DNA of 64,000 bases from Planctomycetota bacterium (GTDB taxonomy: Bacteria > Planctomycetota > SZUA-567): the NCBI GenBank assembly GCA_031254915.1, contig JAIRTL010000092.1, positions 1-64,000 of the forward strand. Reading direction: 5' to 3'. The position numbers were made by a program, and so were the translations under genes. The notes beneath the pieces were generated by a model. The model made no database searches, was not told the DNA's origin, and saw only the letters and a list, made by a program, of their open reading frames with translations. Below, piece after piece: positions 3,587 through 46,281 of the stretch. Numbering within the stretch: the stretch's first letter is position 1; the number at the start of each line of letters is the position of its first letter.

Positions 3587-3609
3587 GGGTGGTCACTCGG
3601 CAATCGTGC

Positions 3610-3640
3610 ATACCGTTCACGGTCCGGAATTGCGATGCCC
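3610..3640 (+). repeat. Truncated copy of dispersed repeat R1 (R1-D)
   Basis: The stretch beginning ATACCGTTCACGGTCCGGAA matches the 5' end of R1 copy B in about 27 of 31 positions, then similarity stops. On the minus strand it encodes the last residues and stop of cmk (R-G-H-R-N-S-G-P-stop). The other copies read R-G-N-R-N-S-G-P-stop (R1-B) and P-G-N-H-D-S-G-S-stop (R1-A) in the equivalent frame. It appears to be a remnant that replaced the end of cmk. Confidence 0.6.
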
Positions 3641-4309
3641 GCGGAGCTGCCGCAACACCGCCGCCGCCGCCCCGTCCAGCGCCATGCCGGTCGTGTCCAG
3701 GTAGACGATGCCGTCCGCCGCGAGCGCCCGGTCGCGGGCGTTGCGCAACGGGCCGACGGCGAAGTCCGACGCGTCCCGCTCCTCGACGTCCCGGACGACG
3801 CGTTCCAGGCTCGTCTCCCGGCCGGCGGCGATCAGTTCGTCGTAGCGGCGCTTCGCCCGCGCCTCCACCGACGCGGTGAGGAAAAACTTCCACCTGGCGT
3901 CGGGAAGGACGACGGTGCAGATGTCGCGCCCCTCCGTGACGGAAGGCCGCGAAACGGCGATGGCGCGCTGCTTGCGGGCGAGGATTTCGCGGAGCGCCGG
4001 CGCGCGCGCGACGAATTTGACGTTTTCCGTCACCTTCGGGTCGCGGATGGCGCGGGAGACGTCTTCGCCGTCGAGGAAAACCGTCGTGCCGGCTTCGTCA
4101 AAGCCGACGTCGGCGCCGCCGACGGCGGCCGTGAGCGCCTCGCCGTCGTCCGGGTCGACGGCGAGGCGAAGCGCCTTGAGGGCGAGCGCCCGGTACATCG
4201 CGCCCGTGTCGACGAACAGCCAGTTCCTGGCGCCGGCGACCCGGCGCGCGACGGACGACTTCCCCGCGCCGGCGGGACCGTCGATGGCGACGGCGGGCAA
4301 GTCCGGCAT
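3617..4309 (-). CDS. cmk: Cytidylate kinase
   Basis: 230 aa, the normal size for bacterial Cmk. It phosphorylates CMP/dCMP with ATP. The P-loop G-P-A-G-A-G-K-S lies at residues 11-18; the family signature G-R-D-I-C-T-V-V (about 133-140) and the D-x-R-D segment of the LID region are present. The ATG is one base after the rpiB stop, so rpiB-cmk-uvrB look like one transcript. The final nine codons and the stop coincide with the R1-D repeat fragment, so the native C-terminus was probably replaced, in a part of the protein that is usually variable. Confidence 0.95.
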   Translation of the reverse strand: MPDLPAVAIDGPAGAGKSSVARRVAGARNWLFVDTGAMYRALALKALRLAVDPDDGEALTAAVGGADVGFDEAGTTVFLDGEDVSRAIRDPKVTENVKFVARAPALREILARKQRAIAVSRPSVTEGRDICTVVLPDARWKFFLTASVEARAKRRYDELIAAGRETSLERVVRDVEERDASDFAVGPLRNARDRALAADGIVYLDTTGMALDGAAAAVLRQLRGHRNSGP

Positions 4310-18816: not shown

Positions 18817-19004
18817 GATCGACTCCTTTCGCATTCCGAACATGCCAGCGAGCGGTCCAGAAATTGCCGTGACCTTTTACCCGCTCCTATTATGTATGTG
18901 TCGCGAACGGGGCGGTTGTTACCCGGTTTTCTTTTCATACCGTCTTTTTGGGCAAAATTCCGGGAACGTCAAATTCCGCAGGGAGATGCGGATTTCCATA
19001 TTGG

Positions 19005-19124
19005 GCGCGGCCCGAAATTGTGAAAACGGGGGATGGGGGTTGCCCTGTTCCACATCCGCTTCCCTTGACCATTTCATGGCCGAGCACAGTCGAGGGAATC
19101 GCAACTCCGGACCGTGAACGGCAT
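19005..19124 (-). repeat. Dispersed repeat R1, copy B (120 bp)
   Basis: Read on the minus strand it begins ATGCCGTTCACGGTCCGGAG and ends TTTCGGGCCGCGC. It aligns without net gaps over 120 bp with copies A and C, most strongly in CATGAAATGG (with C), GCGGATGTGG (with A) and GTTTTCACAATTTCGG. The flanks are unrelated to those of the other copies. Confidence 0.85.
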
Positions 19125-19134
19125 ATTTTCCCAT

Positions 19135-33895: not shown

Positions 33896-33903
33896 GTGAT
33901 TGC

Positions 33904-34023
33904 ATGCTGTTCGCGCCTCGAGGCAGTGATTCCCCCGATTGCGCGCGGTCATGAAATGGCCAAGGGAAACGAATGCGGAGTGGGGCGACCCCCATACGCC
34001 GTTTTCACAATTTCGGACCGCGC
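33904..34023 (+). repeat. Dispersed repeat R1, copy C (120 bp)
   Basis: It begins ATGCTGTTCGCGCCTCGAGG and ends TTTCGGACCGCGC. It aligns over exactly 120 bp with copy B, sharing GATTCCC, CATGAAATGG, CAAGGGAA, GACCCCCATA-like and GTTTTCACAATTTCGG blocks. It fills the space between the convergent methyltransferase and lepB genes, ending 9 bp before the lepB stop. Confidence 0.8.
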
Positions 34024-34031
34024 CAGGGTTA

Positions 34032-42015: not shown

Positions 42016-42146
42016 TTATGCCGTTCACGATCCGGAGTCGTGATTCCCCGGACTGCGCGCGGCAAGCAGGGTGTCCGTGAAACGGATGTGGGATGGGGCA
42101 ACCTCCGACCCCCCATTTTCACAATTCCGGGCCGCGCACGGCATAA
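42016..42146 (+). repeat. Dispersed repeat R1, copy A, with terminal inverted repeats
   Basis: The 120-bp core (42018-42137) begins ATGCCGTTCACGATCCGGAG and ends TTCCGGGCCGCGC. Perfect 9-bp inverted ends TTATGCCGT (42016-42024) and ACGGCATAA (42138-42146) surround it, which copies B and C have only in decayed form. No ORF longer than a few dozen codons lies inside. Confidence 0.85.
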
Positions 42147-42160
42147 CCGACTGTTGCGAA

Positions 42161-42238
42161 GACCCCGGCGTTTGGGGATGCGACGGCGCAAGCCGAAATG
42201 CGCAATGGGATGTCCATTCAACTCCGCAAAACGCCCTA
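42161..42238 (+). repeat. Dispersed repeat R2, copy A
   Basis: 78 bp starting GACCCCGGCG. It matches R2-B (46139-46215, opposite strand) at roughly 80% of positions, with identical blocks GGGATGCGA, CGAAATGCGCAA and TGTCCAT. It ends in CAAAACGCCCTA, the complement of the TAGGGCATTTTA-like terminus of R2-B. Confidence 0.75.
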
Positions 42239-46101: not shown

Positions 46102-46139
46102 CATGGCCGGAGCGCGTCGATGCCCCGGCCATGCTTTTT
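46102..46139 (+). terminator. Terminator of the ilvE transcription unit
   Basis: Perfect 9-bp stem CATGGCCGG / CCGGCCATG with a 14-nt loop, then CTTTTTA. The R2-B repeat starts at its last base. Confidence 0.8.
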
Positions 46140-46215
46140 AGGGCATTTTACGAGGTTGGATGGACAAGCCGTTGCGCATTTCGTCTTGTCCCATCGCATC
46201 CCGGAGCGCCAGGTC
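46139..46215 (-). repeat. Dispersed repeat R2, copy B
   Basis: Reverse-oriented relative of R2-A. A further inverted match (AAAATGCGCC at 46233-46242 against TAGGGCATTTTA at 46139-46150) could bound a 104-bp element. It lies between the ilvE terminator and the bidirectional terminator. Confidence 0.7.
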
Positions 46216-46281
46216 CTTCGATGCAACCGGTCAAAATGCGCCAAGCTGTGCGCCGCACGCCGGAATCGGCATAAAACGAAG

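Follow-up and report, generated by a model that had tools for sequence, protein, structure and literature searches.

The dispersed repeat R1 is very probably a non-autonomous MITE of the IS630/Tc1-mariner type. Bacterial MITEs are shorter than 200 bp, present in high copy number and non-coding, with terminal inverted repeats, a target-site duplication and a composition that is A+T-rich compared with the host. R1 is a dispersed, non-coding element of 129 bp with at least 150 copies, inverted repeats that match at 20 of 27 positions, a GC content below that of its host, and a TA-like duplication of two bases which is seen in nested empty sites and in the composition of the ends. Insertion at TA with duplication points to derivation from IS630, and so does the right end, which is similar to that of an IS630 element from the same clade. 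Judged from these features of its sequence, R1 was very probably spread by an IS630 (Tc1/mariner) kind of transposase. We conclude that R1 represents a new family within a kind of element that is well known, and not a new kind.

Structure and distribution of R1

The window, i.e., the whole stretch of 64,000 nucleotides that was analyzed, holds three copies of R1 and a solitary remnant of its left end (Table 1). The initial annotation described the copies as three 120-bp segments, one of them (copy A) bounded by perfect 9-bp inverted ends. These segments align over their whole length with a pairwise identity of 74-78% and alignment scores of 52-65, whereas none of 300 shuffles scored above 11.5, and the starts, ends and common blocks given for them are right. 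However, while the 120-bp block is real, the true ends as taken from 100+ copies define an element of ~129 bp, and the block stops ~8 bp short at the right terminus. Similarly, the 9-bp perfect ends exist (42016-42024 and 42138-42146) but are private to copy A, and the inverted repeat of the family is ~27 bp and imperfect.

Table 1. Positions of R1, R2 and sister elements in the window (plain coordinates) and in other fetched sequence (L numbers).
Feature	Position	Strand	Remarks
R1 copy A	42017..42145	+	129 bp, TA...TA; divergent subfamily with R1b-like interior CCCCGGACTGCGCGCGGCAAGC
Copy A, left terminal inverted repeat	42017..42043	+	TA included
Copy A, right terminal inverted repeat	42119..42145	+	TA included
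R1 copy B	33903..34031	+	Gap of convergent genes (methyltransferase / signal-peptidase-like)
R1 copy C	18997..19125	-	Nearest of the three window copies to the genome-wide consensus
Solitary R1 left-end remnant	3609..3643	+	Overlaps 3' end of cytidylate kinase gene (3617-4309, - strand)
R2	42144..42238	+	Directly abuts copy A
R2	46138..46244	-	
R2 elsewhere	L093:10734-10836, L096:19183-19288, L082:19140-19243, others		
R2 nested in R1	L096:9710-9941, L097:16881-17111, L164:637-872		232-bp forms
MITEs of 74-78 bp	L122, L123, L132, L121, L130, L141, L142		Motif TATACTG...AATTGTGA; genomes G011, G012, G014

The 129-bp consensus (TATACCGTTCACGGTCCGGAGTTGTGATTCCCTCAACTGTGCGCGGCCATGAAATGGCCAAGGGAAACAGATGTGGAACAGGGCAACCCCCATCCCCCATTTTCACAATTTCGGGCCGCGCCCAGTATA) usually has TA at both ends (YA to TR), and its terminal inverted repeats begin with TATACYG and finish with AATTGTGA, which gives the end pattern TATACYG....CGCGG..CCG.AATTGTGA. 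R1 contains no recognised gene, and one frame on each strand of the consensus is open throughout. The interior of the element seems to have no role other than to be carried along in transposition. Copy A is located between a 4Fe-4S ferredoxin gene and the gene for a 2-oxoacid:ferredoxin oxidoreductase alpha subunit, and the interior of its subfamily is also found in other copies and in relatives. At the solitary remnant, the cytidylate kinase gene ends within the R1 sequence, and its stop codon thus derives from the repeat.

The window belongs to a MAG of 2.75 Mb in 137 contigs, which is 87% complete. A DNA query with one copy returned 40 scored matches among 244 candidates in this genome, and a sequence profile from 32 copies returned at least 150 R1 matches on both strands, which bears out the expectation of further copies genome-wide. 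The copies are moderately old, with a median distance of 11.5% from the consensus, and the GC content of the consensus is 54%, compared to 62% in the flanks. Genomic context was analyzed in a sample of ~434 kb of completely read sequence, which is rich in R1 copies and not random, and in which a simple codon-usage gene finder found 341 genes covering 83% of the sequence. Even though the sample is 83% coding, none of 64 R1 matches was located mainly within a gene, and this near-absence may be the result of purifying selection. Some copies adjoin one another (L159:1331 onwards; L166:1201-1331 and 1387-1516), one of them apparently tail-to-tail with a common terminal TATA.

R1 is denser in convergent gaps than in tandem gaps (2.3/kb vs 0.9/kb, p=0.02), as expected where insertions are least harmful. 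The same enrichment could also indicate that R1 functions as a structured RNA or as a regulatory element (a terminator, an attenuator or an RNase target), formerly mobile and now selected at its sites. Such a role would agree with the folding of the consensus as a single long hairpin and with the number of pairs changed on both sides (26 vs 17.9 in shuffles). However, pairing is hardly maintained, as 88.7% of cells are paired compared to 88.1% in shuffles, and the pairs changed on both sides mostly go from UA to CG or from AU to GC, as would be the case if the copies merely differed in GC content. The orientation relative to neighbouring genes in tandem gaps is mixed (13 same, 17 opposite), Rfam gave no match within the window, and no match to R1 was found in the congener G001. 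The long hairpin is nothing other than the inverted repeat, and no evidence of a maintained RNA function was seen; we therefore consider a selected RNA or regulatory element highly unlikely.

Insertion sites and target duplication

The boundaries of R1 were compared in 100 copies. The first base is T in 73% and C in 25%, the second is A in 97%, and the last two bases are T in 88% and A in 78%. The flanks are AT-rich for ~3 bases and then random, and no excess of a target duplication beyond 2 bp was found among these 100 copies except for a marginal 3-bp signal (6 vs 2.1 expected). A counterpoint to insertion at TA is that ~25% of the left ends are CA, which requires either T-to-C decay, as the substitution pattern supports, or a looser target.

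In the nested-site test, the flanks of each R1 copy were joined and compared with all fetched sequence, and uninterrupted counterparts matched three R1 junctions. In one of these (L029), R1 is found within a copy of the R1b subfamily. In the other two (L180 and L177), it is found within a third repeat, R3, with the ends GCGTTTTCGGGC / CGAGAAAACGCC and an intact counterpart at L093:4133-4228. At all three sites, one TA-like dinucleotide in the intact counterpart is present as two in the filled site. The insertions in L180 and L177 occupy the same R3 dinucleotide in opposite orientations and are thus probably independent. In our reading of the alignment, L177 appears to have an additional 8-bp slip duplication of the R1 end.

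These nested sites also bear on whether R1 was spread by another class of transposase, e.g., an IS200/IS605 or REP-associated tyrosine transposase (HUH). REP palindrome families have been reported in Planctomycetes (PMC3733652), and R1 resembles REPs in being palindromic and intergenic, while its terminus matches that of an IS630 element. Repeats of the REP and IS200/IS605 type have units of 20-40 bp and subterminal hairpins, and they are not flanked by a target duplication; R1 has a 129-bp unit, its inverted repeats are truly terminal, and it duplicates two bases at TA. HUH elements are not known to make a two-base target duplication, and the nested empty sites mostly refute this type of spread, the probability of which we regard as almost negligible.

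Copy A can be compared with its orthologous operon junction. The ferredoxin and oxidoreductase genes are 323 bp apart in the window, compared to ~50-140 bp in the genomes of genus g3 that were compared, where both R1 and R2 are missing at this junction, and the excess is accounted for by R1 and the neighbouring R2. In the congener G001, the junction (L192) contains ~300 bp of different, R1-free DNA, and the junction thus seems to have been enlarged twice independently.

R2 is a dispersed repeat of ~95-105 bp (GCGCATTNTAACCAA...CGCAAAACGCCC). Its position directly beside copy A, and the three 232-bp forms in which it is found inside R1, raise the question of whether R1 copies are fragments of a longer composite of R1 and R2, from which R1 alone is derived. 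However, R2 is also found by itself at unrelated sites and is missing from more than 100 R1 copies. It thus has the look of an independent element inserted into R1, and the common insertion point suggests that one R1 with R2 was subsequently copied. A composite origin accordingly has only a very slight chance of being correct.

Relation to IS630 and to known elements

An IS630 sequence is found in the congener G001 (Planctomycetota MAG Nc350_bin156), which has a broken IS630 gene with a DDE_3 match (E=1.2e-14) and a match to the NCBIfam IS630 model that falls below the cut-off of that model despite E=1.5e-20. The right end of R1 matches the 3' end of this remnant (TTTTCACAATTACAGGTCGCGTGAAGTATA) at 24 of 30 positions in register. 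When the terminal GTATA is excluded, 19 of 25 positions still match, compared to 12 or fewer for most GTATA sites in the fetched sequence. The left end of R1 matches the congener's IS630 end at only 17 of 30 positions, and since the element is a remnant, the comparison is limited to one end. No match to a DDE_3 (IS630/Tc1-mariner) transposase was found in the window genome, an absence that is not final as the assembly is 87% complete and fragmented. Neither this genome nor the fetched sequence of relatives yielded an autonomous IS630 whose ends are exactly those of R1.

Other relatives also contain IS630 elements or short elements with similar ends. Genome G010 has complete IS630 copies of ~1.16 kb with TATACY...GTATA ends and unrelated flanks. 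Among the candidates that were rejected, the IS630 elements of G012 belong to another subfamily with ends unlike R1 beyond GTATA, a G011 sequence with a fitting end (L116) is merely a ~95-bp 3' remnant, and a weak R1 match in G027 (L064) has no end motif and is probably due to chance. Elements of 128 bp resembling R1b, with TATACT....GAATTGTGA-like ends, are found in G012 and G014, and the 74-78-bp sister MITEs (Table 1) have the same ends. Based on these ends, R1, the R1b-like elements and the 74-78-bp elements make up a clan of IS630-type MITEs within this bacterial family.

The MITE-like reading in the initial annotation is supported by the copy number, the terminal inverted repeats and the TA duplication in nested empty sites, and also by the extra length at the orthologous operon junction and the terminal similarity to IS630. 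The ~27-bp ends are predicted to be the sites where an IS630-family transposase binds and cuts, and R1 would insert into TA by cut-and-paste, leaving TA duplicated. The transposase of the congener's IS630, or of a sister element, may have moved R1 in trans, and this source would since have been lost from the window genome or be absent from its assembly. MITEs usually share their genome with an autonomous partner, although this is not strictly defining, and they can outlive it.

In ISY100, an IS630/Tc1-mariner element, 30 bp per end is sufficient for transposition, and TA is duplicated (PMC2170065). R1 is similar to ISY100 in TA insertion with duplication and in imperfect end repeats, which are ~24 bp in ISY100 (PMC2170065), but R1 encodes no transposase and has no autonomous partner with identical ends among the sequences searched. 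The closest known elements are RUP, Correia/NEMIS and ERIC. RUP (repeat unit of pneumococcus) is a 107-bp intergenic non-autonomous element with ~108-110 copies, a TA target and ends that resemble an IS630 element, which is thought to be mobilised by IS630-Spn1 (PMC2229807, PMC3049150). As compared by description, R1 shares with RUP its short length, non-autonomous nature, intergenic location, TA target and IS630-like ends, and differs in its length of 129 bp, its ~27-bp imperfect repeats and its GC-rich planctomycete host without a detectable IS630. Correia/NEMIS elements of Neisseria have forms of ~107 and 155 bp, 24-26-bp terminal repeats and terminal TA (PMC2229807), and their longer form with internal sequence is similar to the R2-bearing form of R1, although the host differs. 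ERIC (RU-1) of enterobacteria is 127 bp with TA termini, an intergenic location and frames open throughout (PMC2229807). It thus resembles R1 in all four respects, with near-equal length, while it differs in host and in its terminal repeat of only 7 bp compared to ~27 bp in R1.

A search of open-licence papers, largely by titles and abstracts, returned no description of IS630-type MITEs in Planctomycetes. The statement in the initial annotation that no named element with these ends is known also holds within the databases searched, as Rfam has no match in the window and an exact R1 core pattern is unmatched in the GTDB species genomes, from which the window's genome and its near relatives are possibly absent.

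Decay of R1 copies and GC content

The R1 copies are numerous, non-coding and dispersed, which makes them a natural set of neutral clocks. Per-site substitutions relative to the R1 consensus are 15.5% for A-to-G, 12.9% for T-to-C, 5.4% for C-to-T and 5.0% for G-to-A. AT-to-GC transitions are thus 2.5-3x more common per site than GC-to-AT, a bias that we treat as a lead since a majority consensus and subfamily structure could inflate it. The bias is strongest where TG or CA becomes CG, and twice as strong when a CpG is created. The GC content of the copies correlates with that of their flanks (rho 0.53) and is higher in copies that have diverged further (rho 0.42).

Two mutational causes of this pattern were rejected. 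TG sites almost never show CA, nor do CA sites show TG, and CG is therefore the derived and not the ancestral state, which rejects CpG deamination. Loss of mismatch repair is likewise rejected, as the window genome encodes both MutS and MutL. It is possible, if rather unlikely, that the GC content of this genome is set not by mutation alone but by GC-biased fixation, either through biased gene conversion or through selection.

Our results show that a planctomycete lineage without cultured members is heavily loaded with IS630-type MITEs, and they tie these MITEs to the end of an IS630 element from the same genus. R1 also accounts for repeats which sit within operons and can break assemblies. 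The larger value of R1 may be in its ~150 decaying copies, which act as neutral reporters for the GC question. If GC-biased fixation is true, the GC bias arises despite MutS and MutL, and the R1 copies would bear on why GC-rich bacteria stay GC-rich.
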